21,110 nt of DNA, from IMG/VR virus record IMGVR_UViG_3300042691_006598, positions 1-21,110 of that record; one strand, 5' to 3'. Of the stretch, positions 2,187 through 17,735 are shown one piece after another (position 1 is the first letter of the stretch; each line of letters begins with the position of its first letter). The notes beneath the pieces were generated by a model. The model made no database searches. It saw only the letters and a list, made by a program, of their open reading frames with translations, and was not told the origin of the DNA. The position numbers and the translations under genes are program-made. This DNA is from a virus.

Positions 2187-2918
2187 ATGTATACATTTTT
2201 AGAAGTTGTTAACTTGGCCTTACGGGAAGTCAATGAAGTCCCTATGACCGAGCAACAGTTAGCTAATGCAAGGGGTTTACAACAGTTTGCTAAAGAGACT
2301 GTCAATCGTGCGTTCTTTGATATTAGTTCAGAAAGCGAGAAGTGGCCTTGGTTACAACAGACGGTAACTAGTGTACCGGAACAAGAGATACGTAAGTTAG
2401 CCATAGGGACTCAATGGTACGACACGGAACCTTTAGTAGGTGGTTTACGTCAAGAGCCTGATTGGTTCACTTTCCTGTTAACAGATAAGGACCTTACTTC
2501 CACTGATCCACTGGTTATCGCTAGTAAACCAACCATCGTTAAGAATCTTAAGTACATTACTTATGATGAGTGGATTGCTAATTTTAGGACGGATGATTTC
2601 GCAGGTAACACAGGTGAACCTGAGTACATCATTAAGTATGGCACAGGTAAGTTTGGGCTTTCCCCTGTCCCAGACAAAGAGTACTGTGTTGCTTATAACG
2701 TTCGTAGTCAGGCAGTACGTTTCCGTTTGGCTACAGATGTTATTCCTATTCCTGAGGATTTCGTTAACGTTCTTGTGAGCCGTATCAAGTACTTCCTCTG
2801 GTTGTTCAAGGAGAACGATGTACAGGCTAAGTTTTCACTAGGGGAATACCAAAGTGGCTTAATCAACATGAAGAGGTCGCTCTTAAGTAACAAAGAAGAA
2901 AGAATGAGGGCGGTGTAA
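2187..2918 (+). CDS. Tail tubular protein A-like / head-tail adaptor
   Basis: Probably forms the ring between portal and tail nozzle, like T7 gp11. The 243-residue product begins with FLEVVNLALREVNEVPMTEQQL at the N-terminus (key elements: LN.AL.E.NE.P). It continues into a helix with ANARGLQQFAKETVNRAFFDI at about residues 26-46, a pattern typical of the TtpA/gp11-like adaptor family. The C-terminal half is beta-rich followed by a helical end (RIKYFLWLF, EYQSGLINMKRSLL). The length is close to that usual for gp11-like proteins. It starts after an AAGGAG SD just downstream of the capsid terminator and is followed one base later by the TtpB-like gene, the standard podovirus pairing. A DNA-ejection gatekeeper role is inferred from the family. 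Confidence 0.82.
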   Translation: MYTFLEVVNLALREVNEVPMTEQQLANARGLQQFAKETVNRAFFDISSESEKWPWLQQTVTSVPEQEIRKLAIGTQWYDTEPLVGGLRQEPDWFTFLLTDKDLTSTDPLVIASKPTIVKNLKYITYDEWIANFRTDDFAGNTGEPEYIIKYGTGKFGLSPVPDKEYCVAYNVRSQAVRFRLATDVIPIPEDFVNVLVSRIKYFLWLFKENDVQAKFSLGEYQSGLINMKRSLLSNKEERMRAV

Positions 2919-2919
2919 T

Positions 2920-4566
2920 ATGGCTAATCGGATGCAAGTAATTGCCGTCCCTTGTCGGGGAGGTCTGAATACTTCAAGTAACAACCAAGAGCTCTTAAGT
3001 AAACCCGGTGAAGCCATAGAGCTCGTTAACTTTGAATGTAGTAAAGAAGGCGGATATCGTCGTATAAGTGGGTATACCCCATTGACTACCACGGTTCCTA
3101 ACACAGGTCACATAAAGGGTGTTATTAACTATAGAGGTATCCTAGCGGCCCGTGGTGATGGGTTGTATCACACTACGGACAATTCTACATGGGTACAAGT
3201 GAACCGTACGATGTCTAATGTACCTATCGGTTCCGTTGGAAGTTCTCCTATTGTAGCTAGACCTAATAGTGTTCGTTACATGTTTGTAAGACACTACTAC
3301 AACAATAAAGAGTATATCTACATGGTGGACGGTGTGAACCTTCCAGCGGTATTCTCGTTGACTCCCGGAGGTCTCTATCGATATGCAACCTTCAACGGAG
3401 ATTCTCCAAGTAACCCTCTGCTAGGCGCTAAGTACTGCACTATGTTTAAGAACCAACTGATACTCGCTGGTATGCCTGCGTCTCCTACTAGTATCTTTTA
3501 TAGCTCCGTAGCCAATAGTGACTTAGTGAACCCTGAGGATGCTACAAAGGAAACACCTCAAGAGAACTTTAACGGAGCAACAGCAGGGTCCTTGAGTTTC
3601 GGTGACGTAGTTACAGGTATAATGTCTCATAGGGAAACCTTATACGTGTTCTGTGAACATAGTATCTTTAAGGTTCAAGGGTTAGACTCAGGTGAAGTTG
3701 TGTCTGTTCCAGTGACTAGGGATATCGGATGTATCGATGGTTTCACTATTCAAGAGGTTGGTGGTGATTTAGTGTTCTTGGCTCCTGATGGTTTACGTAC
3801 AATAGCCAAAACAGAAAGACTGGACGATATTGAACTTGGTGTGATTAGCCGTAAGGTTTCTAAGGTAATAACTCCTAGAGTACGGCAGGCCCCTAGGTAC
3901 CTCTTTACTTCAACAGTTATACGTGAGAAGAACCAGTACAGACTTTGGTTCACTGATCTAGAGAACCCTTTAGAAGCACAACGTGGCCTTATAGCTGCCT
4001 TTACTTTCATAGCTGAAACACAGGCGTTCGAGTGGGCCTTTAGTGAGACTCTGGGACTTAGTGCGGTTGCAGTGGACAACGGTTATCACCAAGGAGCCGA
4101 GCGTATTATCCATGCTAACCATATCGACGGTACAATCATGTTACAGGAATCAGGGTTTACCTTTAACGGAACAACCATTGATTACCTGTGCCAATTTGCC
4201 TTCTCAGACTATGGACAGCTTGGAGTACGTAAGACGATACATAAGGTACTGATGAATTCAAAAGCTGAGGGTTATGTCGAAGCAGGTCTTGAGGTACGCT
4301 ATGACTACAATGGTAAGGATGTGTATCAACCTGCTATATATCCTTTGGAACGTATGTTAAGCCCAGCTATCTTTGGCGCTAATGCTTCGGTGTTCGGAGA
4401 TCCAATTGTGTTGTTCGGTGCTTCTACGTACGGAGACACAGATGTTTATACGGAAGGCTCTGGTTTTACTGTTTCTCTACGTGTGAAATCACTGAAAACA
4501 ATACAAGACGCTTGTTTCGACATTCAAAGCTATGAGGTCGATCTGACTTTAGGAGGTAAGATATAA
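2920..4566 (+). CDS. Tail tubular protein B-like nozzle protein
   Basis: Probably the main nozzle protein of the short tail, analogous in place to T7 gp12 or to P22-type stabilisation proteins. The 548-residue product is almost entirely beta-structured. The N-terminus carries the recognisable sequence PCRGGLNTSSNNQ at about residues 9-21, then NFECSKEGGYRRISGY at about 36-51, a motif set seen at the start of many marine and LUZ24-like podovirus nozzle proteins. Repeated short beta-blade-like stretches follow (for example GILAARGDGLYHTTDNSTWVQ, positions 3136-3198), consistent with a propeller platform. The start ATG lies one base after the upstream stop with a GAGGGCGG SD-like sequence. The gene ends in a TAATG overlap with the next, implying coupled translation. 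Confidence 0.8.
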   Translation: MANRMQVIAVPCRGGLNTSSNNQELLSKPGEAIELVNFECSKEGGYRRISGYTPLTTTVPNTGHIKGVINYRGILAARGDGLYHTTDNSTWVQVNRTMSNVPIGSVGSSPIVARPNSVRYMFVRHYYNNKEYIYMVDGVNLPAVFSLTPGGLYRYATFNGDSPSNPLLGAKYCTMFKNQLILAGMPASPTSIFYSSVANSDLVNPEDATKETPQENFNGATAGSLSFGDVVTGIMSHRETLYVFCEHSIFKVQGLDSGEVVSVPVTRDIGCIDGFTIQEVGGDLVFLAPDGLRTIAKTERLDDIELGVISRKVSKVITPRVRQAPRYLFTSTVIREKNQYRLWFTDLENPLEAQRGLIAAFTFIAETQAFEWAFSETLGLSAVAVDNGYHQGAERIIHANHIDGTIMLQESGFTFNGTTIDYLCQFAFSDYGQLGVRKTIHKVLMNSKAEGYVEAGLEVRYDYNGKDVYQPAIYPLERMLSPAIFGANASVFGDPIVLFGASTYGDTDVYTEGSGFTVSLRVKSLKTIQDACFDIQSYEVDLTLGGKI

Positions 4567-5297
4567 TGTCTACATATACTAGACAATCCGCGTTTTCCAA
4601 TGGGGACGTAATTGATGCTCCATTGTTTAACGCGGAGTTCGACCAGTTAGTGGAAGCTTTCCATGGATCTACCGGTCACACACATGATGGTACTGCTGGC
4701 GGAGGTTCACCTGTACCGTTTATTCAGAAAGGAACTAGTGGTGTTTATGTTGACACTAGTAACCCAGCGGCACACAAGATCGTATTTAAGATTGATGGCG
4801 TTACTGTTAATACGGTCGATGCAGCATATAACGTAGTTACCTCTAAGATAAAACACACTCCAGTGTCTACTGGCGTACCTGTGGCTCTCAATACTTACTT
4901 AGAAGGACTTGAGGTAGCTGTAGGGGATGCCGCATCGGATGCCGCTAGTGCTGCAGAGAGTGCTGATAGAGCTGAAGCAGCTGCAATGGTTCTTGGTGTT
5001 CCTGTTGTACTTGCGGATGGAGCTACGTACAGCATACTGAATACCATGGTTCAAGTGGATATTATATGCTTAGGTAACGCTACTATTAACTTACCTACAG
5101 TATTGACTCCGGGGTACCGCTACAGTATTCGTGTGAGCTCCTTAGCTACTGAAGGAAAGAAAGCAACTATTATGAACCCTACGTTTAACATTGTAGGTGA
5201 TGTTAGGACCTTAGTACCCGGAGATAACCTTGAGTTATTACCTAGGGACTTTGCTGTACTTGATGTTATCTCAACAACTCATTTGGAGGTCATTTAA
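4566..5297 (+). CDS. Tail fibre / tail-fibre adaptor protein
   Basis: A 243-residue protein. Its N-terminal part, NGDVIDAPLFNAEFDQLVEAF (about residues 12-32) followed by GHTHDG (about 37-42), is a recurrent signature of phage fibre and fibre-adaptor proteins that dock on the nozzle. The two histidines of HTH could bind a metal as in other fibres, but that is speculative. A beta region follows, then an Ala-rich trimeric coiled-coil candidate (DAASDAASAAESADRAEAAA, about 120-139). A C-terminal beta domain of about 100 residues may trimerise or hold the next fibre. There is a TAATG overlap on both sides and AGGAGG-type SDs. It probably links the nozzle to the Asp-box protein encoded next. No catalytic motif is seen. 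Confidence 0.75.
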   Translation: MSTYTRQSAFSNGDVIDAPLFNAEFDQLVEAFHGSTGHTHDGTAGGGSPVPFIQKGTSGVYVDTSNPAAHKIVFKIDGVTVNTVDAAYNVVTSKIKHTPVSTGVPVALNTYLEGLEVAVGDAASDAASAAESADRAEAAAMVLGVPVVLADGATYSILNTMVQVDIICLGNATINLPTVLTPGYRYSIRVSSLATEGKKATIMNPTFNIVGDVRTLVPGDNLELLPRDFAVLDVISTTHLEVI

Positions 5298-6493
5298 TGG
5301 CTAACTTCACTTTATCTTCTATGGAAGGTTCGGCTGCTGGGGTACCTATTGGAGCTACTATTGAGCTGTTCCAAGGTCTTCCTATAGATTTTACACATAA
5401 TGGAGCTCGTTATTTACGACACAATTTCATTGAGACGGATACGTCTAAATTTGATACTACTATATTTAGTGAAACCCCAGCTACAATTTTAACCCTTACA
5501 GGATTTCCCGGAGACGCAGGAGCTAGGGATGCATTTGCAATGGTTAAAGGCGCTGGTTCTACAATTGTAGCTTTCTTTGCTAAAGACGGCATGTCTACTA
5601 CGGCTTATAGATCGACAGACGACGGAGTTACTTGGTCGAGTCAACTATCAGTAAGTAGCAGTCGACTTAGAGGTGTTGTTTATGCTTCATCTTTAAACAT
5701 GTTTGTTGTTATAACAGATAATGGTACTGTGGAGACATCCACTGATGGTGGGGTTACATGGCAGAACAGGGGTGCTCTTGTAACTACCGCAGGTCACCGT
5801 GATATTCACTGGAATGGTACGACATTTGTAATAGTAGGCCCCGGTGGTGTTATCCAAACATCGACTAACGGTACCTCATGGAACGCTCGTACATCTAACG
5901 TAGCCTTCAGTTTTGGTAGTGTTATGTTTGGTAACGGTACATGGGTGGCTATGGCTACGCTCCAGAACGCTGGGGCTTGTGTGTCTACGGACGGAGGTGT
6001 AACATGGACGGCTGTTAACCCCAATTTCGGCGGCACAGCATACCCGAGTAATGTTGTGTTTGATGGTTCTAAATTCTTATGTTATACAGAGGAGACGTCA
6101 AATAACCAACGTGGAGTTTACACTTCAACTAATGGAGTGACGTGGACAAAGACAGTACACTCTCCTAACTTCTACAACGCCAGTGCAAGTTCTTTCTTTA
6201 CTCTAGCGTACGTTGCCGGGTTTTTTATTGCGACAGGACCCTCTGGGAGCGCTCTTCTTTGGAGATCTCGTGACGGTGTTAAGTGGACTTCTGTATCACA
6301 CACAAACACTACAGGTTCTAGTATTATATGCCATCGTTTACGGACATTAGACGCAACAAGGATATCCGTTTCTCAAGGTATATTCAACGGCACTCAAAAC
6401 TTTTCTACTTTGAATAATACGTTCTACGCAGGTAACCCCACAACATTAGCTTCGAGTACGTCCGGTGTTTCTTCTTACGTGAGGATTTCATAA
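5297..6493 (+). CDS. Asp-box (BNR) beta-propeller receptor-binding candidate
   Basis: The 398-residue product contains six Asp-box turns of the S-x-[DN]-x-G-x-x-W type: STDDGVTW (106-113), STDGGVTW (148-155), STNGTSW (189-195), STDGGVTW (230-237), STNGVTW (277-283) and SRDGVKW (324-330). Their spacing of 41-47 residues is what a six- or seven-bladed beta-propeller gives. The N-terminal 100 residues are different and may dock to the adaptor. The family includes sialidases and sugar-binding propellers. I do not see the Arg triad and Tyr/Glu pair needed to call an active sialidase, so glycan binding is the safer inference. It overlaps its neighbours by one base (TAATG) and has a GGAGGT SD. Most likely a tip or side-fibre protein that contacts the host surface. 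Confidence 0.8.
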   Translation: MANFTLSSMEGSAAGVPIGATIELFQGLPIDFTHNGARYLRHNFIETDTSKFDTTIFSETPATILTLTGFPGDAGARDAFAMVKGAGSTIVAFFAKDGMSTTAYRSTDDGVTWSSQLSVSSSRLRGVVYASSLNMFVVITDNGTVETSTDGGVTWQNRGALVTTAGHRDIHWNGTTFVIVGPGGVIQTSTNGTSWNARTSNVAFSFGSVMFGNGTWVAMATLQNAGACVSTDGGVTWTAVNPNFGGTAYPSNVVFDGSKFLCYTEETSNNQRGVYTSTNGVTWTKTVHSPNFYNASASSFFTLAYVAGFFIATGPSGSALLWRSRDGVKWTSVSHTNTTGSSIICHRLRTLDATRISVSQGIFNGTQNFSTLNNTFYAGNPTTLASSTSGVSSYVRIS

Positions 6494-7042: not shown

Positions 7043-7107
7043 CAAGACGGAGTGAGGGGCCCTCGTGGTTCCTCTCTTTGTATCACAGATTTAAATAGGA
7101 GGTCCTC
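7043..7107 (+). promoter_or_regulatory. Leader of the ejection cassette
   Basis: A 65-base gap, one of the few real intergenic spaces. It contains a small GC-rich hairpin (GAGG, loop GGC, CCTC, 7054-7064) and an 8-base direct repeat CCTCGTGG at 7061-7068 and 7104-7111. The second copy spans the GTG start codon of the next gene. A very strong SD (AGGAGGT) lies at 7097-7103. There is no T-tract good enough for a terminator and no convincing promoter. The repeat over the start codon could allow translational control, but this may be coincidence. Confidence 0.3.
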
Positions 7108-9129
7108 GTGGCTTACAACGTAGAACGTCAAATCATAGAACTCGATAGGGAGGATCGTTTGTGGCCTCCACCTGATTTAAAATATGAAGGAGCCCCTGTT
7201 ATCAGGGAGGATGTAGGACTACCCTCATACGTACCAATATCTAAAGAAGCTCAAGAGAGCTATAAAGGGAGCACTCCTTCTGATATCTACGGGATTCCTG
7301 AGAATATTGGTGGATTGCAACCTACAAGAGATCCCGATGTTCCTTATTATGGAGATACGGCGTTTAGTAATAGAAACCCAGAGTTAACAACAGATCAATG
7401 GGGTGAGCCTACATTCTCAATACCCGGTAAGGGACAAGCGTCAACGGGTGGTTTAGATATATACAAGCCTCCTACAGAAGGTGGTGTTGGTGGTATAGGT
7501 GCTCCGGTACCGGGGACTACACCGGGGACTACACCGGGGACTACACCGGGGACTACAACACCGGGGACTGGAGGTACCTCTGGCTCAGGTTCAACCTCAA
7601 CTACGACAAGCGGCCTCACAGGTGACGCTAAGAAACAAGTAGAAGCTATTCTTAAGGACCCTGTAAAGTTTATCAAGGACAATAACCTAGAGCAGAAGTA
7701 CACTCCTCAGATGCTTACAGCGGAAGAGTTAATGGATCCTTCTAAGTTTCAGGTAGGACCTACGGGTCAATTAACTGCTGTTACTGGAGGTATTCCTAAC
7801 TTAGCTACAGTAGGGGATGTCACGCAGACTACCTCGGGTCCTTTGGACAAAGTTACTGCAGGGACAGCTACAGGTACCACAGCGGTATCTCCTGATAAAG
7901 TAACTGCTGATAGTGTAGTTTCGGCTCAAGCCAAGGCTGCTGAAGATATTAAAGTAGCTGACTTTGCGGCTGCCTTAATTGACCCATCGAGTCTTAAGAA
8001 AGCTGTAGATGAAGTAGCCAAGTTGGACCCAATGAAAGCAGCTTCTATGTCTGAGCACATGGACCGTTTACTTGAGGATCTTGAGTCAGGTAATGTACCA
8101 CTATGGGCTCGTCCTGCGGTTACCAAGGTAGAACAAATGTTAGCTGCTCGTGGTATCAGTGCTTCTAGCGTAGGCAGGGATTCTCTGTTTAACGCTATTA
8201 TCCAAGCTGCAATGCCTATAGCTCAACAAGATGCTACGTTTGAACAGGATGCTAGAAAGACTACTTATAACGCTAAGGTTCAAGCGATTCTTAGTGATGT
8301 TAATATGGACTTCGCTGCTAAACAGTTCAACGCCAATAGTATCAACCAAACGAATCAGTTCAAGGCTCAACTACAAGCCCAAGTAGATATGCAGAACGCT
8401 GCTCGTAAGGACGCAATGGCTCAGTGGAACGCCAGTGAAGCTAATAAGATGGGCATGTTTAACGCGAGTAATAAGTTACAAGCGGACCAATTGAACGCTC
8501 AACTAGCTGCACAGGTTGGTATGTTTAATGCGGGTGAAGCTAATAAGCTAGGTATGTTTAACGTAGGTAATCAGCTACAAGCGGACCAATTGAACGCTCA
8601 GTTGACTATGCAGAACCAACAATTCAATGCAAGCGAAGCTAATAAGTTAGGTATGTTTAACACAAGTAACCAGTTACAAGCTTCTCAGTTTAACATTCAA
8701 ACGGCTATGCAAGCAGGGCAGTTCAACGCTAGTCAAATAAACGCTATGACACAATTAACAGCTCAGCTTCAGGCACAACGTGAGCAATTCAACGTCCAAA
8801 TGGCTTCACAGATTGAACAGTCAAACGTTAACTGGAGACGACAAGTGAACCAAGCGAACACCGCAGGTATTAATGCTGTAAACCAAGCTAACGTACAGAA
8901 TGCGTTTAACTTGAGTAACCAAGCGTTAACCTTCCTGTGGCAAGAGATGCGCGATAAGGCTCACTGGGAGTTCCAAGCGTCTGAAAGTGAGAAGGACAGA
9001 AAGAATCAACTAGAGGCTGCCTTATTAGCCAGTGAGGCTGCTATGGGCGGTGAGATAGGTAAGATGATTTCCAATATGATGAATGGAAGTAACTTACTTA
9101 AGAACTTGTTCTCTGGATGGGGAGAGTAA
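7108..9129 (+). CDS. Large internal/ejection virion protein with 11-residue repeat array
   Basis: The 673-residue product starts at GTG, chosen because AGGAGGT lies directly upstream. The N-terminal third is Pro/Gly-rich and probably disordered, including a PGTT repeat linker (about 135-154). A Thr/Val region (about 215-275) and a helical region (about 275-400) follow. Residues 406-603 are an uninterrupted array of eighteen 11-residue units of the form (Q/M)-F-N-A-x(7), rich in Asn, Gln and Ala and predicted to form a long helix. A helical end of about 70 residues follows. Asn/Gln/Ala helical repeats of this style occur in other phage virion proteins whose role is undefined. Position and size suggest an ejected internal protein or a fibre-like rod. 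No enzyme motif is seen. It is the first gene of the cassette, followed two bases later by the next gene. Confidence 0.75.
   Translation: MAYNVERQIIELDREDRLWPPPDLKYEGAPVIREDVGLPSYVPISKEAQESYKGSTPSDIYGIPENIGGLQPTRDPDVPYYGDTAFSNRNPELTTDQWGEPTFSIPGKGQASTGGLDIYKPPTEGGVGGIGAPVPGTTPGTTPGTTPGTTTPGTGGTSGSGSTSTTTSGLTGDAKKQVEAILKDPVKFIKDNNLEQKYTPQMLTAEELMDPSKFQVGPTGQLTAVTGGIPNLATVGDVTQTTSGPLDKVTAGTATGTTAVSPDKVTADSVVSAQAKAAEDIKVADFAAALIDPSSLKKAVDEVAKLDPMKAASMSEHMDRLLEDLESGNVPLWARPAVTKVEQMLAARGISASSVGRDSLFNAIIQAAMPIAQQDATFEQDARKTTYNAKVQAILSDVNMDFAAKQFNANSINQTNQFKAQLQAQVDMQNAARKDAMAQWNASEANKMGMFNASNKLQADQLNAQLAAQVGMFNAGEANKLGMFNVGNQLQADQLNAQLTMQNQQFNASEANKLGMFNTSNQLQASQFNIQTAMQAGQFNASQINAMTQLTAQLQAQREQFNVQMASQIEQSNVNWRRQVNQANTAGINAVNQANVQNAFNLSNQALTFLWQEMRDKAHWEFQASESEKDRKNQLEAALLASEAAMGGEIGKMISNMMNGSNLLKNLFSGWGE
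7510..7569 (+). repeat. 12-base tandem repeat coding for a PGTT linker
   Basis: Four perfect copies of CCGGGGACTACA run from 7510 to 7557. An extra ACA follows, then a fifth partial copy (CCGGGGACT, 7561-7569). In frame they encode Pro-Gly-Thr-Thr units in the disordered N-terminal part of the large protein. The unit length is a multiple of three, so copy-number change would alter linker length without a frameshift. Confidence 0.95.
8323..8916 (+). repeat. 33-base repeat array, 18 units, with 99-base higher-order period
   Basis: Eighteen consecutive 33-base units, each encoding 11 residues that typically begin (Q/M)-F/L-N. Units 4-6 (8422-8520), 7-9 (8521-8619) and 10-12 (8620-8718) repeat as three-unit blocks: ASEANKLG-type, then SNQLQAD-type, then QLNAQL-type. 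DNA identity is high between blocks; GCGGACCAATTGAACGCTCA is shared by the first two. Flanking units are more divergent, as in an array that grew from its centre. Confidence 0.92.
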
Positions 9130-9131
9130 TA

Positions 9132-10334
9132 ATGGGATTATTTAGTAGTATAAAGAAAGCCGTAAGTAAAACTTGGGGCGGTATCAAGAAGACAGTAAAG
9201 ACCGTTGCTCGTACTGTAAAGAAGGTAGCCAAGAAGGTTGCTTATGCAGTTCCCGGTGGTAAGGCTTTATGGAAACTCGGTACTAAGGTAGGCCAAGGTA
9301 TAATGAAGGGTGTTGGTAAGATTGTAAACAAGCTAGGACCTGTAGGTATGATGGCACTATCCTTTGTAATCGGACCTGCTGTAGGAGCCCTATGGGCTGG
9401 CTTTGGAGCTGGTGCACAGGCATTAGCTGGTATGAGTAACGTATTAGCTAGTACCGTAGGTAGTATTGGTCAGGGTATCTTTGCTGCCGGTAATTTCGTA
9501 ACGGGCACATTAGGCGCTGTTGGTGAAGCCATCCTAGGCGGTGCTGGTAAGGTTATAGCTGGCGAGGGTTTCTCTTCTGCTGCAAACCATTTCGCAACTA
9601 ATATCACTAATGCATTCACAGGTAAAGCTGGTATGGCTGCTGTTCACGCCGGTGCTGCTCAAGCGGCGGCTACTGCGAGTGCTGAGGTTGCTTCAGGTGA
9701 CTCTTGGTTCTCTGCTGCTGAAGGTGCTGCTAGAACTTCACAGTTGTCTTCTATTAACCAAGCAGGTATGGAAGCTGTCTCAGGGTTACAAGGGTTAGGT
9801 AGTGTAGGTGCTGAGGCTATCGCAGGCATGGATCCAGAGATGCTAGCTAAGTTTAGTCCTCAGGCTTCCATGGTTCAACAGAACATTCAATCAGCTACAA
9901 TGAGTAGCCCTGCTAGCGGACTTGATCTGAAGGGACAGTTCACCCCTGATGCACTCAAGCCTACTTTAAGTAATCCTATGAGTACATATGGTGACGGTAT
10001 GGCACAGGCGTGGAAAGCAGGAGCTACGGATTCCGGTATCATTCGTAACACAGCAAGTAATATCGCTATAGGTAACAACACGTTCACAAACATTTCGCCT
10101 TCTAAGTCGTCTGCTCTTGATAGTATTGTGGACAACGCTAGTTCACTTAAGAGTCTATTAGGCGGCAATAAGGAACAATCTGGTTACCAACCTTACGAAG
10201 TAAAACCTATACAATCAACTATTGCTAAGGCCACTAATGCGTCTGGGCAAGGGTCCGCAGGTTTCTCTCTGTTAGGTGGTGTACAAGGCCTAGAGGAATC
10301 CCTGCGTAGATCACAATCTATGATGTTCGGCTAA
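9132..10334 (+). CDS. Membrane-active internal virion protein candidate, 400 aa
   Basis: The start at 9132 is chosen because GGGGAGAG lies about 6 bases upstream. An in-frame ATG at 9117 lies inside the previous gene and lacks an SD. The N-terminus is strongly cationic: residues 7-36 place Val/Ile at 18, 22, 25, 29, 32 and 36 with Lys/Arg between, an ideal amphipathic helix. Further Lys/Gly-rich sequence extends to about 68. Residues 70-150 are an Ala/Gly-rich hydrophobic region with several possible membrane helices (for example MMALSFVIGPAVGALWAGF, 73-91). The C-terminal half is Ser/Ala/Gln-rich, low complexity. This layout suits a protein that is packaged and then inserts in the host membrane during DNA entry. 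No family name is recognised with confidence. Confidence 0.72.
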   Translation: MGLFSSIKKAVSKTWGGIKKTVKTVARTVKKVAKKVAYAVPGGKALWKLGTKVGQGIMKGVGKIVNKLGPVGMMALSFVIGPAVGALWAGFGAGAQALAGMSNVLASTVGSIGQGIFAAGNFVTGTLGAVGEAILGGAGKVIAGEGFSSAANHFATNITNAFTGKAGMAAVHAGAAQAAATASAEVASGDSWFSAAEGAARTSQLSSINQAGMEAVSGLQGLGSVGAEAIAGMDPEMLAKFSPQASMVQQNIQSATMSSPASGLDLKGQFTPDALKPTLSNPMSTYGDGMAQAWKAGATDSGIIRNTASNIAIGNNTFTNISPSKSSALDSIVDNASSLKSLLGGNKEQSGYQPYEVKPIQSTIAKATNASGQGSAGFSLLGGVQGLEESLRRSQSMMFG

Positions 10335-10344
10335 GGAGAAACTA

Positions 10345-10974
10345 ATGAGCGTAATGCAACAACTTAAATCAATGGCAGGCCAGCCTTCAGGATTCCCTAA
10401 GTTTTCCCAAGGTGGTGTGCCTAAACAAGCTATGCAAGACGCTGAGGCTATGATGATGACTGCTCCTATTCCGGGGCAGTCCTTAACACAGAGTCCAGAG
10501 TCTAGATTACCGTATGAAACTCCTCCTAAGTTCTCCGACATACAAGAGTTCATCGATGAGACCTTTATGCGCTTTACTGATCCAGACTCCTTACCGGACC
10601 TTCTGGAAACAATGAGACTAGGGTTACCTGTGGAGCATATTGCTGAGAAGTACTTAGAGAACAGATTTCAGAAGGGTGAGATAACCCCTGATCTAGTTAT
10701 GTTATGTATTGAGCCTGTGATCTACATGTTGATTTCCCTAGCTACTTACGCAGACATAGACCCTGTGTTGTATCCAGAGGACCCTATGATCGACGAGGAA
10801 GCTACCCCTGTTCATACAGACTTCTACCGTAAGGCTACTCAGAGTATGCTTAAGGAAGACGTTGCAAACACAGAGAAGGTTACTGTTAATGATTTACAAG
10901 CGCCTACCAATGTACCTAAGAGTCTCCTAGCTAGATCTAAGGAAGCGGTAGCACAAGTTAAAGGAGCTGTATAA
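10345..10974 (+). CDS. Internal virion / structural protein, 209 aa
   Basis: The N-terminus (1-60) is Met/Pro/Gln-rich and probably disordered. The central part, IQEFIDETFMRF (about 65-76), LLETMRLGLPVEHIAEKYLENRF (about 86-108) and GEITPDLVMLCIEPVIYMLISLATYADIDPVLY (about 111-143), is helical. It resembles a conserved protein of phage structural cassettes whose hallmark is TPDL...I.EPV...L..LA..A.IDPVLY. The C-terminal 60 residues are charged. It is similar in size to T7 gp14 (196 aa) and occupies the matching first-small-then-two-large order, which suggests an analogous core/ejection role by position only. AAGGAG SD; the stop overlaps the next ATG as TAATG. Confidence 0.7.
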   Translation: MSVMQQLKSMAGQPSGFPKFSQGGVPKQAMQDAEAMMMTAPIPGQSLTQSPESRLPYETPPKFSDIQEFIDETFMRFTDPDSLPDLLETMRLGLPVEHIAEKYLENRFQKGEITPDLVMLCIEPVIYMLISLATYADIDPVLYPEDPMIDEEATPVHTDFYRKATQSMLKEDVANTEKVTVNDLQAPTNVPKSLLARSKEAVAQVKGAV

Positions 10975-12884
10975 TGGGTTTCAGAAGTAGAGCTTTGTTA
11001 ACCGGTGTTGCCACTGGTTTCCTTAAAGCAAACAATGATAGACATGCGGAACTCAAGGCTCGTGTTGTTGAGCTGGCGGACCGTAAGGCTGAACTGGATC
11101 GAGAGAGAGCCAAGAGTGAAATGACACGTTCTGTTGAAGCGGCTGCTACTGAAAGTGCTAAATATCAGGAACTGTTTGGGAAAGGACATATAGATGCTGA
11201 GGGTAACTACACCACAGTATACTGGGATGATGCTTCTCGTGCAGAATGGCAACAGCATGGTAACGGTAAGTCCCATAAGGAATACGCTGAGACATTTAAA
11301 CAAGGTAGACCTCAGAAGTTCGTTCGTCAATATAAAGATGTAGGTGAAATTCAGAAAGGTTTCCAATCTATATACGATTCGATTGACGCTAGACAACGAG
11401 CGGAGTCCTCTGTTAATCCTTTGACTAACATTGAGAACATGTTAGGTGGTAGTGTGTTGTCGTTATTTGGTAGAGATACTGATTTCGAACAGAAGGCTGA
11501 GCAAGTGAGTGTTCCTACAGTTGATCCTATGACACATGCGGCTCCTAGTGCTGTTCATGAAGATAAAGGGTTGACTTATAATCTACCTAAAGAAAAGCCT
11601 GCGCTAACACAGCTCGTTAAAAATATACAAGGTAAGTACGATAGTATTCAAGTAACTGATGACAACAAGGTGTCTGTAACTGACACTGGTGTCACTGCTA
11701 TGATAACTGATCAGAACGGTAACAGTCTACGAGGTTCGTTGGAGCAGATGATAGACCCTGTTTGGAGGGAAGGTAAAGACTTCGTATCTGACAAGGGTGT
11801 ATGGAAGAATACTGACTTCGATACAAACGGTAAACCTGTGACTACGTACGGTTATATTGTTGACGGTAAGTTTGTTGTGGATCCTAAGCTTCGTGACACT
11901 AAGGTCGAGGATGAAACTAGCGCGTATCCGTTCAAAGGTGAACATAACATCAAAGCAGTTAACGGTGCTATGGTAACGGTAGATGCTGCCCAGTCTGCCC
12001 ATAGAAACCTTAATATCATGAGTAAGGTGTATAACCCATCAGATTACGGTAGTGAGCGATTTGTTTCGGACGGTATGAACATAGCTAGTGCGCTTGGTCG
12101 TATATTCGAACCTGACTTCAGCGCAGGTCCTAAGGAGCAGAAAAGAGTTATTGAGTTAATCAGACAAAGTGATGGATACAACCAATTATCGCCTGAGCTT
12201 AAAGTCGCTATTGAATCCGGTGATCCGAAAGCTATAAAAGAAGCAAACCAAAAGTACGCTGGAGAACAATTTGAACAGTTTAAATTAGAGATGAAGAATG
12301 CTGCTAACTTATCTGATGAAGATAAAAAACTACTAAGCGAGTTGAGGGTAGGTCAAATAGATGCTCATGCTTTGGCGGCGGCCCGTGATGTAATTCGAGC
12401 ATGGACTAATGGTGATAATAAACCAGCATTAGGGGCTGTACAGGAATTAACTGAAAGTTTAAAACCGGGCGCAACTGCAACTAAGTTCTCATCTATAGTC
12501 GAGACGTACAAAGTAAGTATGGTGCAACAAGTTCAACGTAGTTTAGGGGTTAAGTGGTCGGCTTCGGAATACTCACACGGTCAGTCACCTGATAAAAAGT
12601 TCCTTGAGTTACCGCGTGCTTTACAGACTAAGCTAGGGCTACCGGGTACTGAACTACGTAGGGACCCTGTAACAGGTGATTTCCTTATGATAAAAACAGG
12701 TATAGATAAAGATAAGAATATCGTACGGTATTACGTAACTGCGAACGATCAATCTATCTACAAAGCTATCCTGCCTAAGAAAGGACAAGAACTTACACCT
12801 CAACAAGCGGATGATTTTAAATATGGGCAAGCGCTGGAAGCTGATTTTAGTGAACGCTTTAATCAACACGGCAGGCCTTACTGA
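10974..12884 (+). CDS. Large internal virion protein, 636 aa
   Basis: The N-terminus has a short hydrophobic stretch (ALLTGVATGFL, 7-17), then a charged coiled-coil region rich in Glu, Lys and Arg (about 20-65). The middle is mixed alpha/beta with many Asp/Lys/Thr stretches, including VTDDNKVSVTDTGVTAMI near 225-242. The rest is helical with a more globular C-terminal part (about 510-620). No lysozyme, protease or nucleotide-binding motif is visible. Its length and place between a small and a very large structural gene parallel T7 gp15 (747 aa), an ejectosome component, but no residue-level homology is claimed. Translation is coupled to the previous gene through TAATG, with an AAAGGAG SD. The coding sequence ends 12 bases before the 1612-residue gene. 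Confidence 0.7.
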   Translation: MGFRSRALLTGVATGFLKANNDRHAELKARVVELADRKAELDRERAKSEMTRSVEAAATESAKYQELFGKGHIDAEGNYTTVYWDDASRAEWQQHGNGKSHKEYAETFKQGRPQKFVRQYKDVGEIQKGFQSIYDSIDARQRAESSVNPLTNIENMLGGSVLSLFGRDTDFEQKAEQVSVPTVDPMTHAAPSAVHEDKGLTYNLPKEKPALTQLVKNIQGKYDSIQVTDDNKVSVTDTGVTAMITDQNGNSLRGSLEQMIDPVWREGKDFVSDKGVWKNTDFDTNGKPVTTYGYIVDGKFVVDPKLRDTKVEDETSAYPFKGEHNIKAVNGAMVTVDAAQSAHRNLNIMSKVYNPSDYGSERFVSDGMNIASALGRIFEPDFSAGPKEQKRVIELIRQSDGYNQLSPELKVAIESGDPKAIKEANQKYAGEQFEQFKLEMKNAANLSDEDKKLLSELRVGQIDAHALAAARDVIRAWTNGDNKPALGAVQELTESLKPGATATKFSSIVETYKVSMVQQVQRSLGVKWSASEYSHGQSPDKKFLELPRALQTKLGLPGTELRRDPVTGDFLMIKTGIDKDKNIVRYYVTANDQSIYKAILPKKGQELTPQQADDFKYGQALEADFSERFNQHGRPY

Positions 12885-12896
12885 TAGGAGAATTTA

Positions 12897-15800
12897 ATGG
12901 CTGTAAATATGAACCCAACTAACACTGCGATATCTAGTACTAAGGCAGGTTCGTTAGTTATGCGACCTACTCAGGTTGCTAGTGTGTCGAATGTTGATGA
13001 ACCTGAGGAAACGTTGGATAACCTTACGGCCGTAGCTCCTGAGATAAAACAGCAGGACCCTAATGTCGTATTACCTTCTTCACAATCACAAGATACCTCG
13101 CAGGAGCCTCAGGTAATCCCTGAGGTTCCATCGGAGGCTATTACTGAACCTGTGGAAATTACTGATGAAGAACCTCAGATGTTTGACCCAGCAAAACCAG
13201 TAGCTCATGCATCACCAGAGGAGTCTGAAGAATACCTAGCTGAAATGTATGGTGATATTGAACTAGCTGCCGAAGACGACAGTTCTATTTATGATATCGA
13301 ATTAGATACTGAAAGTGATTTGGTAAAGGAAACCTACGAACTCCGTAATGAAAAGAAAGCTCAAGAAGTGGCTAATAAAACTATGGTAGGGGCAAAAGAA
13401 TCCTACACAGCAGATGATATGGTCAAGGTTTTTGAGGGAAGTAAGTTCTCTGCGTTACAGAAAGCTAAAGAAGAGTACAGTTCATGGGAAAACATTGGAA
13501 AACGTTTTGCATTGAGCACCCTTGAGTTTCCTCGTTATTTAGCTACTATGCCTGACGCAGCGGCTGTTTCTTTAACGTCTGCTGTTACAGGTAAGGATTT
13601 TAAGAAAGCTACAACTATGTATGAGCGTGCATTACGCGGTGACGGCTTGCTTACTGCACTTACTAGCTGGGCTTATGATAACTGGGTTACCGATCCTGTA
13701 TACGGGCGTAATGGAAAGAAAACCGTAGATCAGAAGTTTGAAAATGACTTGATTAGTGACATTGAAAAAGAACACGGAGTTAAGCTTGAAGAGGACTATC
13801 TCTTTTGGCAAGGAATGAAGGAAGCAGGAGGAACCGCTGTTGTGGGTGGTGTTTTGTCTGGTTTTAAAACTCTAACTAAAGAAGGTGCAAAACGGACAGC
13901 CGCTGGGTTACCTCAGGTAGGTAAAACAGAGGCTACTGGCTTTGTTGTAAACGAAGGTGTTAAGGCCGGTACAATGGCTGTAGCCTCTGTTGCCGCGTCC
14001 GCTAAGGCACTAGAGGTATTCCATCCAGAATCAGCTGAAGGTAAACTATTAGTAGGTATGTCGGCAGGTACAGCTGCTCCTGTTGCTTTGTCGGCTGCAA
14101 ATGCGGCTATGTCGAAAGTAGTTCCTTATACATTATCAGGTATGGCTATAAGGGTATCCCGTGTTGTACTTAATAAAGTACCGGAGTTACATAAGAACCT
14201 TACGTTAAACCGAGAAACAAATAAAATAATGCGTGTCGAAGGTGTTGATTATCCTACAGCTTTACGTAGATATTACGAACGTAAGGACGCTCAGGACGGT
14301 TCGACAACGAAGGAACTTGCATTTAGATTGTTAAACGACACGGAAATGACAGAATCAGAGAGACTCGATGCAGTTAACACGTTGATAAATGCTGCTGTTA
14401 GTGATCCGTATAGTAGAGAAGCCGCTATCTTACGGGCAGCTAACCAGACTTTGGGTAAGGACATCGATTCTTTAGGTGACGCGTGGACTCAAGCGGATTT
14501 ATTAAGTTCTGCTTTCGATAACGAGGATTTCAAAGTAACAGCGATGGACATGTACCAAGGTAAATACACTGAAGAATTTGTAAATCTTCATCAGTCCTTG
14601 AACGCTGATACTATCGTTAAAGACCAAGTGAAAATGCTAGATCTCATTAGAGGTCAACTACAAAAGGCTACTGATTTATCAGATTTGGAACGTGGTGAAT
14701 TATCATTAGCGGCTAAGACCCTTGAAAAGAGTATTCAAGAACACATGCAGTCTACTTTAACTGAACAACAGGCTAACGTAGCGGCAGCTCTTGATTATCA
14801 TACCGGAATGAAATATGACCCTAATGCTCCTGCTACGGATTCTTTAACTGGTGTAAGAGGCGCTCTGGAAGGTATTAAAGGCTTAGTTAAAGGGATGTTA
14901 CGTACCGGTTATGCTTCAATAGATTCTTTAGGTGTACATAGGTCTACCTCTGCTTATAAGGAAATCAATAACTTCTTAGAAGGGATGGACAGAGCTAACC
15001 CAGCGTACAGTGAGATTAAGAAGGCATTCAGTTCTTTAACAGCAGATTCCGTTGGTAGAATCTTTGGTGAGACTAACGACCCTACGTTACTTATAACTGG
15101 GGCACAAAAGAACCCTACCTCGTTATTTTCTCCAGCTGCCTTGAACGCTACAGACGCATTAGTGTACCTAACCCCGGAGCAGTTCACAACACTAACAGGT
15201 GTTAAGGTAAGCAAGGAACCTAAAAAGGCTAAGACCTCAATAGCGAAGATCACATCTATTAAGTTACGTTCTTCTGATGATGGTGCTTTCGTTGTTGAAG
15301 CAGCTTCTGATGCTAAGTTAAGCGCTGGTCTGGGACAGTCTTCTCTTATACCAGTGTCGTTTAACTCTGCCGATATCTCCCCTGAGGGTTTGATTCGTAT
15401 TAATGATCAGTCCGGCTCTGTTATTGAACTAAACGTCAAGCAACAATTAACCAAAACGGGAGATGATAGACATAATATCGCGTTGACTCAGAAGGCAATC
15501 GTAGATGCTCGTAAAAAAGGGAACCTAAGTACCGAAGGTCCTTTCTCATCCTTGTTCCCTAAGTTCGATTCTACAAAACTGCCAGTGTCGTACATGGAGT
15601 TAGACCAGTTCCAGAGAAGGATACGTAAGTTGCGGAGGGACGCCCAGTATGCTCTCCGTACTGATGAAGCTAGCGTGTACGAGGAGTTAAACGGTATATT
15701 AGAGCAGAGTATACAGCACATGTTAAAGGACGATCCAGATGCTCTTAACAATAGAAAACTAATGGATACTCTGTACGGTGATTCTTTTATACCTAACTAT

Positions 15801-17735
15801 GAGGCAGCCAGTAGTTTAGTAGGGTTAGCTACTGCTAAGGAAAAGAATAGAACATATAAAGCGTTTACGTCTGCTGTACTTAGACAAACAGAAAGCGTAC
15901 CTGAGCTTCGTCAGAAACTTCTAGATGTACTGAATCCTGAGACATCTAAGTTTATGCGAGATATTTCTAGTAAGGATGCTACAGGTAAACTTCAAGAAGC
16001 TCTTAAGATGAATGAAGGTAAGCTTAGGGAACTAGCTACACAAGGTAAAACCGTAGCCTCCAGTATGCTTGATATTAAACTTACTGACATCTTAGCTAAT
16101 ACTTATAAAGTAATAGGAACCGACAAGAATCCTAGTGTTGCTTTAGTTGAGTCCATTAAGGCACTTAAGGAATCTCCTGATTTCCAAGCGTTATACATGG
16201 CGTCTCAAGGGACTGATTCTGCTAAGATGATAGATGTATTACTCAATCTACCTGACGATGCAGATCTAAACGGTGTTCTGAAGAACCTTCAAGATCACAT
16301 AGATAGGTTTGATTCTCTTATGTATAAAGACGTATCAGCTATGAAAGACCCTGCTAACACGGGGGCTGTCCTTAATCTGGTAAGTAATATTGATAAGTTA
16401 GATGAAGTACAAGCCGATCTTATAATCAACGGTGACTTGGGTAAAGCTGCTCCTCATATGATTAAGATTGTGATGGAGGACGCGTTGAAAATGTCTGATG
16501 ATGGATTAAGTGTAGCTTCTATTGACGCGGCATTGCGTAAATATGAGAAAGGACTTGAGCGCCTTCCGGGAGGAGCTGACGCTATATTACAACTTAAAAC
16601 ATTAAAGGGAGCCCAAGGTGTTTTAAGTAGACTCAACGCGACTGTAGGTAAAGGTAAATCGGCGGATGTTGTTGAACATAACACAGTGGTGGACAGGGTT
16701 TTAGGTTGGATACCTAGTGTATTCTCCGACTTCAGATCCGCTAACAAAGGGATAACTAGCTATCAATTCGCTGCCGTGTCTAGTGTTGTTAATATAGCCA
16801 AAGGTGAATACAGAGCTCTTAAGAAAACAGAACAGAAGGCCGCAACAGAATTGATTGTAGCTGCCTTGAGAGATAAGGGAGTGTACGAGCGTGTTATGCA
16901 GTTTGATAAGTCTATGAAGGACGCATCTCCTGCAGAGAGATTACGTGGTTTGTCTCTTATGTTCCATGCTGCTAACGGGGCTCGATTAGGTGCTTTGGAA
17001 GCTATGATAACGTACTCAGACCCTACGTTAACTGATGAGGAACGTAGAGAAGCTTTACATAACTCCCCTGAATACAAGGAAGTGGAAGCTGAAGATTTAG
17101 CTGCGGAACAAGCTTCTTACGGTAACCGTCCAGATGGTACTCCAAAAGGTAAAGGGTTCCTAGGTGAACTTAAGACAACAAACGGAGACGTTATGACTGA
17201 ACTATCTTTCTCGGTTGAGTTGGATGGTAAGGAAGTATTAATGCCTGCCATAGTTCCAACGTTGTCTAAGAGTGAAATAAAGCATCTTCAGGAGACACAG
17301 GAGATAACGCCTGAGATACAGAATAAGGCTGTGGATCACGCTATGGGTCGTATTAAAGAAGGAAAGAGTCCTTTCTACGAGGAAGGAGAACAGGATAAGC
17401 CAAAGGAAATCCCTAAGACCCTTCAGAGACCTGAGTCACAAATGGAAGCCTCTGATGAAGCTATGTCTTGGTTAGAGTCTATGGCTGAACCAGAGACCTA
17501 TGAGTATGGTCTAGCAGGTCCTATCACGGATGACATGGACGCTAATGAGGCTGCGTTTACCAAACAGGTACTCAAGTTCTCCGAGTTACGTTCAGCGGGA
17601 TACACGAAGGAACGTGTTGTAGATATGATCAAATCCATGAAAACAGCAGATAACCAAGTTAAGGATACTATGTTAGAAGCTGCAGAAGAAGCCTATCGTG
17701 TAGACGAGAAGCCTACTAAATATGAGGAGAATTAA
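12897..17735 (+). CDS. Giant internal virion / DNA-ejection protein, 1612 aa
   Basis: Largest gene in the window. Residues 1-150 are acidic, Pro/Gln-rich and probably disordered. A helical region follows. Residues about 305-425 are Ala/Gly/Val-rich with possible membrane-interacting helices. The long remainder is mainly charged helix. Near the C-terminus, residues about 1408-1494 form a recognisable phage module: NRPDGTPKGKGFLG, a beta region, PAIVPTLS, then a helix with AVDHAMGRIKEGKSPF. This module recurs in unrelated phages, alone or at the end of large structural proteins. Size and last place in the cassette match T7 gp16 (1318 aa), but the transglycosylase (SLT) motif of gp16 is not visible. 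SD TAGGAG before ATG. It probably forms part of the trans-envelope channel; this is inference. Confidence 0.75.
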   Translation: MAVNMNPTNTAISSTKAGSLVMRPTQVASVSNVDEPEETLDNLTAVAPEIKQQDPNVVLPSSQSQDTSQEPQVIPEVPSEAITEPVEITDEEPQMFDPAKPVAHASPEESEEYLAEMYGDIELAAEDDSSIYDIELDTESDLVKETYELRNEKKAQEVANKTMVGAKESYTADDMVKVFEGSKFSALQKAKEEYSSWENIGKRFALSTLEFPRYLATMPDAAAVSLTSAVTGKDFKKATTMYERALRGDGLLTALTSWAYDNWVTDPVYGRNGKKTVDQKFENDLISDIEKEHGVKLEEDYLFWQGMKEAGGTAVVGGVLSGFKTLTKEGAKRTAAGLPQVGKTEATGFVVNEGVKAGTMAVASVAASAKALEVFHPESAEGKLLVGMSAGTAAPVALSAANAAMSKVVPYTLSGMAIRVSRVVLNKVPELHKNLTLNRETNKIMRVEGVDYPTALRRYYERKDAQDGSTTKELAFRLLNDTEMTESERLDAVNTLINAAVSDPYSREAAILRAANQTLGKDIDSLGDAWTQADLLSSAFDNEDFKVTAMDMYQGKYTEEFVNLHQSLNADTIVKDQVKMLDLIRGQLQKATDLSDLERGELSLAAKTLEKSIQEHMQSTLTEQQANVAAALDYHTGMKYDPNAPATDSLTGVRGALEGIKGLVKGMLRTGYASIDSLGVHRSTSAYKEINNFLEGMDRANPAYSEIKKAFSSLTADSVGRIFGETNDPTLLITGAQKNPTSLFSPAALNATDALVYLTPEQFTTLTGVKVSKEPKKAKTSIAKITSIKLRSSDDGAFVVEAASDAKLSAGLGQSSLIPVSFNSADISPEGLIRINDQSGSVIELNVKQQLTKTGDDRHNIALTQKAIVDARKKGNLSTEGPFSSLFPKFDSTKLPVSYMELDQFQRRIRKLRRDAQYALRTDEASVYEELNGILEQSIQHMLKDDPDALNNRKLMDTLYGDSFIPNYEAASSLVGLATAKEKNRTYKAFTSAVLRQTESVPELRQKLLDVLNPETSKFMRDISSKDATGKLQEALKMNEGKLRELATQGKTVASSMLDIKLTDILANTYKVIGTDKNPSVALVESIKALKESPDFQALYMASQGTDSAKMIDVLLNLPDDADLNGVLKNLQDHIDRFDSLMYKDVSAMKDPANTGAVLNLVSNIDKLDEVQADLIINGDLGKAAPHMIKIVMEDALKMSDDGLSVASIDAALRKYEKGLERLPGGADAILQLKTLKGAQGVLSRLNATVGKGKSADVVEHNTVVDRVLGWIPSVFSDFRSANKGITSYQFAAVSSVVNIAKGEYRALKKTEQKAATELIVAALRDKGVYERVMQFDKSMKDASPAERLRGLSLMFHAANGARLGALEAMITYSDPTLTDEERREALHNSPEYKEVEAEDLAAEQASYGNRPDGTPKGKGFLGELKTTNGDVMTELSFSVELDGKEVLMPAIVPTLSKSEIKHLQETQEITPEIQNKAVDHAMGRIKEGKSPFYEEGEQDKPKEIPKTLQRPESQMEASDEAMSWLESMAEPETYEYGLAGPITDDMDANEAAFTKQVLKFSELRSAGYTKERVVDMIKSMKTADNQVKDTMLEAAEEAYRVDEKPTKYEEN

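Follow-up and report, generated by a model that had tools for sequence, protein, structure and literature searches.

We found that a large protein encoded by a 21.1 kb virus record from IMG/VR (IMGVR_UViG_3300042691_006598, 21,110 nt; this whole stretch of DNA is called the window hereafter) belongs to a phage family whose central array is almost certainly, judging by its sequence pattern, a proline-free helix of hendecad (11/3) repeats locked in phase. The same pattern strongly supports that changes in array length were retained only as whole 11-residue steps, because the helix phase is held along the entire array. By analogy with known systems, chances are about even that this protein is a hendecad coiled-coil rod or tube of a podovirus ejection cassette, similar in its working to protein H of phiX174. 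The gene and the parts of its product, by position in the window, are as follows.

7097-7102, + strand: Shine-Dalgarno motif AGGAGG of the repeat gene, read from the sequence
7108-9129, + strand: coding sequence of the repeat protein, 673 aa, GTG start, with homologues found by tblastn
7108-7959, + strand: Pro/Thr/Gly-rich N-terminal tail of low complexity, residues 1-284, whose length varies freely across the family
8011-8232, + strand: conserved head segment, residues 302-375, ending AARGISASSVG...AAMPIAQQDA and holding the N anchor of the phase test (residue 369)
8212-8820, + strand: phase-locked span from the PIA motif to the QSNVNW motif, 202 residues = 18 x 11 + 4
8323-8916, + strand: 18 hendecad units of the sequence-only reading, residues 406-603, supported by self-match and wheel analysis
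8422-8718, + strand: three 99-base blocks of 3 units (33 residues) each, with 68-72% DNA identity
8527-8547, + strand: hinge predicted by AlphaFold2, residues 474-480, aligned with the family mid-array motif LLS(N/D)QAAxNAA
8818-9012, + strand: conserved C cap QSNVNWRRQVNQANTAG...LTFLWQEMRDKAHW, residues 571-635

A sequence-only reading of this DNA had described 18 contiguous 33-base units without an indel at 8323-8916, and both the unit count and the self-match of the protein (z of 8.5 against shuffles at lag 11) bear this out. The 99-base super-period that it proposed was also recovered, with a z of 14.9 at lag 33 and with a TRF call at 8434-8681 (2.5 copies, 76% matches, 0% indels). Lags 22, 44 and 66 gave z values of 6.7, 8.6 and 10.4, all lags from 11 to 66 in steps of 11 stand 6.6 to 14.9 SD above shuffles, and neighbouring lags are mostly depleted. 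The register extends past these coordinates on both sides, and 22 units were counted. As for the start (Q/M)(F/L)N ascribed to every unit, its first residue holds in 18/18, but the exact pattern is present in only 11/18; the third residue is N in 16/18. The description of the central three-unit blocks as nearly identical was overstated, since they agree at 68-72% of bases and at 22-23 of 33 residues. Each pair also differs by 6-10 synonymous codons, so that the duplication of the blocks is not very recent. The idea of a recent expansion stands in part: 10 units are present in the closest relative (L017) and 18 in the window protein, yet the copies have already diverged to about 70%. An antisense match at 8436-8729 was set aside: it arises from the repeat itself and contains 5 stops. 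Within the N-terminal tail, positions 7509-7557 hold a perfect 12-base tandem repeat, ACCGGGGACTAC, in 4.1 copies, which encodes Pro-Gly-Thr-Thr repeats.

The phase of the array was measured between two flanking anchors, (L/M)PIA (residue 369 in the window protein) and Q(S/A)NxxW (residue 571). With anchors matched by pattern, the distance equals 4 modulo 11 in 72/72 of the first proteins; with profile-based anchors the same holds for 107/107 proteins examined, all of which keep the 11-residue phase. The distance takes 17 distinct values among these 107 proteins, from 114 to 752 aa or 10 to 68 units, in agreement with the earlier expectation that unit number would differ among relatives. On a tree of the flanking domains the array lengths require at least 24 changes; the tree was built on 121 columns, which leaves many of its forks open. 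Proline is absent from the arrays (0/27,533 residues) versus 2098/31,077 residues (6.8%) in the N-tails. The mid-array motif LLS(N/D)QAAxNAA lies in a single phase in 52/52 proteins that have one detected copy; it is preceded by 2-18 units and followed by 8-14, and the two arms vary independently in length. Small indels and proline are both lacking, which speaks for selection that keeps the helical phase unbroken. Whole-unit steps could nevertheless partly reflect unit-wise recombination besides selection. Taken to its extreme, this would make them a mere mark of tandem duplication, by unequal recombination of 33-base units and with no structural demand on phase, as the duplicated 99-base blocks of the window and an internal duplication of about 20 units in one relative (L057) might suggest. 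We regard that explanation as very improbable, since adjacent units share only about 40% of their bases and are poor substrates for slippage, since none of the 107 proteins has a small indel in its array though their tails change freely, N-tail and C-tail lengths being spread over all residues modulo 11, and since the 27,533 array residues include no proline.

Structure prediction agrees with a helical array held in phase. The AlphaFold2 monomer of residues 285-673, from a 62-row alignment, has a mean pLDDT of 75 and a pTM of 0.31, with helices at 354-473, 481-600 and 604-668 and a low-confidence break at 474-480. Helix rather than disorder, as first proposed for the repeat, is therefore supported at the level of prediction, both by the all-helical array of the model and by the lack of proline in the family. 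Neither of the outcomes named beforehand as contrary to a rod, relatives that lack the periodicity or a prediction of disorder, came about. The single helix of 198 residues and ~30 nm that had been imagined is retained as to its helical nature, but the low-confidence hinge would divide it into two helices of ~120 residues. In a 28-unit relative (L064) the predicted array is also mostly helical, and its break directly follows the conserved mid motif and lies away from the centre of the array. The hinge stays a suggestion of the models, because the L064 stretch where few sequences align is itself of low confidence. Across models pTM ranges from 0.29 to 0.31, so no tertiary or oligomeric arrangement can be taken as reliable. 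A simple matched helical hairpin is ruled out by the independent variation of both arms. In PDB, Foldseek found nothing below E = 1 for the predicted model; the T7 chains 9jz0_0 and 8e4g_a, which look like gp14 and come from particles that had ejected their DNA or were infecting, appeared at non-significant E values of 4.7 and 7.9.

The length of the rod bears on another explanation. An alpha helix rises 1.5 Å per residue, and the family arrays would measure 17-113 nm if straight, those of 422-752 residues (63-113 nm) being above envelope width. The earlier idea that the length suits the crossing of a Gram-negative envelope has to be modified, as this range fits no one envelope width. Stepwise change that differs between groups is what would be expected of a length ruler, with unit number tuned to the envelope width or the channel length of the host. 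However, arrays that reach 752 residues, ~113 nm if straight, go beyond any Gram-negative envelope and make an envelope-width ruler unlikely; the independent arms (2-18 and 8-14 units) also argue against it. Altogether, we consider a ruler very improbable.

The surface of the helix gives information on how it may pack. Around an 11/3 wheel the positions follow the order 1 (Q/L/M), 5 (Q/S/A/N), 9 (Q/A), 2 (F/A), 6 (N/A/Q), 10 (I/V/M/A), 3 (N/D/E), 7 and 11 (charged), 4 (A/L) and 8 (Q/N). Bulky residues make up 2.9% at positions 5/9 versus 29% elsewhere; in the window protein alone the counts are 0/36 versus 50/162 (p = 1e-5). Charge is concentrated on positions 3/7/11, and two hydrophobic seams are present on the 11/3 wheel in 12/12 proteins. 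For the window protein, Slicky01 and HTVC104P, the two-seam wheel appears at 11/3 and not at 7/2 or 3.6. This pattern suggests that each helix bears an uncharged Gln/Ser/Ala amide strip between two hydrophobic seams, with a charged outer face. Such a surface, it is suggested, is what several parallel copies would require to form a closed tube whose bore is lined by amides, and we infer that the strip faces a bore. The two-seam harmonic was dropped as a proof of a barrel, and the test of the bulky-free strip was used instead: the trimeric control, P22 gp26, is also dominated by the second harmonic, so two-seam dominance on a hydropathy scale fixes no oligomer number. In that control the bulky residues form one contiguous stripe in a heptad pattern.

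The genomic context places the repeat gene at the head of a set of four further genes in the window.

9132-10334, + strand: basic, amphipathic protein of ~400 aa that contains a single hydrophobic segment; Slicky01 and the pelagiphages HTVC103P, 104P and 115P have homologues located after their repeat gene
10345-10974, + strand: 209-aa protein without a Pfam or PHROG match, better conserved than any other neighbour and present downstream of the repeat gene in 12/12 relatives compared
10974-12884, + strand: 636-aa protein in a gp15-like place in the cassette, by order and size only
12897-17735, + strand: 1612-aa protein in a gp16-like place in the cassette, by order and size only

In all relatives inspected, the repeat gene sits in an operon of small, middle and large internal proteins, the functions of these neighbours being putative. 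It is followed in every one by a small or 400-aa protein, then by proteins of ~165-210 aa, 300-930 aa and 800-1640 aa, and this order is kept from CHOED to the rhizobial phages. A small-middle-large order recalls the usual ejection operon of podoviruses (PMC8954989). In the window it resembles T7 13-14-15-16; no homology was detected by BLAST between the window proteins tested and the T7 proteins of that region. The Slicky01 counterpart of the 1612-aa protein matches PHROG 'virion structural protein' models, and no relatives of the 636-aa protein were found in IMG/VR. From this gene position, the repeat protein is presumably a virion component.

Other tail genes lie upstream, at window positions 2187-6493. 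Among them, 2920-4566 matches PHROG 'amidase' and has relatives annotated 'dimodular nonribosomal peptide synthetase'; both names look doubtful, and its place suggests a tail tube protein. The gene at 5297-6493 matches sortilin/BNR-type propeller repeats and its product is a possible receptor-binding or glycan-active tail protein. In HTVC115P a 'toxin-activating lysine-acyltransferase' (L008:3661-4110) lies directly between the repeat gene and that of the 400-aa basic protein, and in CRP-738 a 'putative acyltransferase' (L131:1-119) lies upstream; it is possible that these enzymes acylate a virion protein.

Two other roles were also considered. The repeat protein might be a tail needle, a fibre shaft or a plug, that is, a two- to four-stranded coiled-coil rod outside the phage or in the tail channel, with no tube for DNA. 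A long phase-locked coiled coil near tail genes would suit this, and P22 gp26 offers the example of a long trimeric coil used by a short-tailed phage. But the likeness to gp26 ends at being a long phage coiled coil, as the needle is a heptad trimer with one contiguous hydrophobic stripe, features that wheel tests did not find in the repeat family, where the two seams are separated by an amide strip free of bulky residues. The repeat gene is moreover grouped with the large downstream proteins, and no receptor-binding domain was seen in its product, so that we judge a needle or fibre quite unlikely. Alternatively, it could be an internal core or scaffold element resident in the head, where it would pack DNA or bridge portal and core, and the geometry of head or portal would set the number of units. 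In mature T7 virions gp14 does connect the portal to the core (PMC11784390), and the predicted hinge would suit a folded resident form. However, known podovirus core proteins are ejected (PMC8954989) and a purely architectural role does not predict an amide strip, which leaves a resident role unlikely as well.

Of the characterized systems, the tube of phiX174 H comes nearest in design as a working model. In phiX174 H (PDB 4JPP) hendecads begin with Q, as in QKELTKMQLDN, and N, Q and R side chains make up most of the bore lining (PMC7354561). H and the repeat protein share 11/3 repeats that start with Q, an amide-rich polar strip, a helix of ~120 residues and a phage of a Gram-negative host. 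They differ in that H has 3 hendecads followed by heptads, forms a decamer and belongs to an ssDNA phage, whereas the repeat family carries 10-68 hendecads and is found in dsDNA podoviruses. BLASTP between H and the repeat protein detected no homology (E about 1), so the resemblance is one of design and not of membership. With T7 gp14/gp15/gp16 and P22 gp7/gp20/gp16 the likeness lies in how the genes that follow are ordered, in the approximate sizes of their products and in a helical, hinge-bearing protein. However, in 88-residue windows the best self-match at lags 7/11/22 is at most 13 for T7 gp14/gp15 and P22 gp7/gp20 and 25 for the window protein. Profile comparison of the repeat protein with T7 gp14 showed no homology (hhalign probability 5.3%), and a resemblance between the ARGISASSVG turn and the gp14 turn was set aside as an impression. 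The undecad coiled coil of NadA (PMC6191539) is also an 11-residue coiled coil, but one of a bacterial adhesin reported as trimeric.

The family is widespread. By tblastn, relatives were found in 17 phage records with the window protein as query and in 26 with the CHOED homologue. They include HMO-2011-type phages of Roseobacter, SAR11 and SAR116, Vibrio phage CHOED, Aeromonas phages MQM1 and 1233, Pseudoalteromonas phage Slicky01, and Rhizobium and Sinorhizobium phages; of these, Slicky01 and MQM1 have been imaged or described as podoviruses. In IMG/VR, at least 562 stretches found by profile search were confirmed to code for relatives. A search of host genomes gave 13 matches, all in uncultured or metagenome-derived assemblies, which are probably viral contigs binned with host assemblies. 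One family member of 1679 aa (L057:1317-6353) carries a 68-unit array of 752 residues with an apparent internal duplication of ~20 units. Annotated relatives are almost all labelled 'hypothetical protein'. Searches of the repeat protein against Pfam, PHROGs and PDB profiles gave no usable match, and the sole BFVD match at E <= 0.001 (Foldseek) was W8FPS3, which at 460 aa is as long as the CHOED homologue. For the family as a whole, the sources searched yielded neither virion proteomics nor a structure of any member.

Bringing these observations together, we propose that the repeat region encodes an 11/3 alpha-helical coiled-coil rod, several copies of which would pack side by side with the amide strip lining a bore; both this oligomeric state and the role in ejection are what we infer. 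The protein would be carried in the virion of the short-tailed phage as the first member of the ejection cassette, where the mid-array hinge may allow the rod to fold within the head. During infection it would leave the virion with its cassette neighbours and line or prop a channel for DNA across the Gram-negative envelope, like the tube of phiX174 H. A broader proposal, which we advance tentatively as the less probable side of an open bet, is that dsDNA podoviruses of the ocean carry a convergent, extensible, all-hendecad tube for DNA delivery, of ~17 to >100 nm, H-like but unrelated, whose length evolves by 11-residue steps. Such a tube would have been missed so far because nearly all members are annotated as hypothetical.

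HMO-2011-type phages rank among the most abundant viruses of the ocean (PMC9038755). How they cross the envelope is undescribed in the literature that we found, and the repeat family would mark their ejection machinery. The phase lock in 107/107 proteins also constitutes a clean natural experiment on indel constraint in 11/3 coiled coils, over 10-68 units. Furthermore, if the tube is true, two unrelated virus groups would have converged on amide-lined hendecad helices for the movement of DNA.
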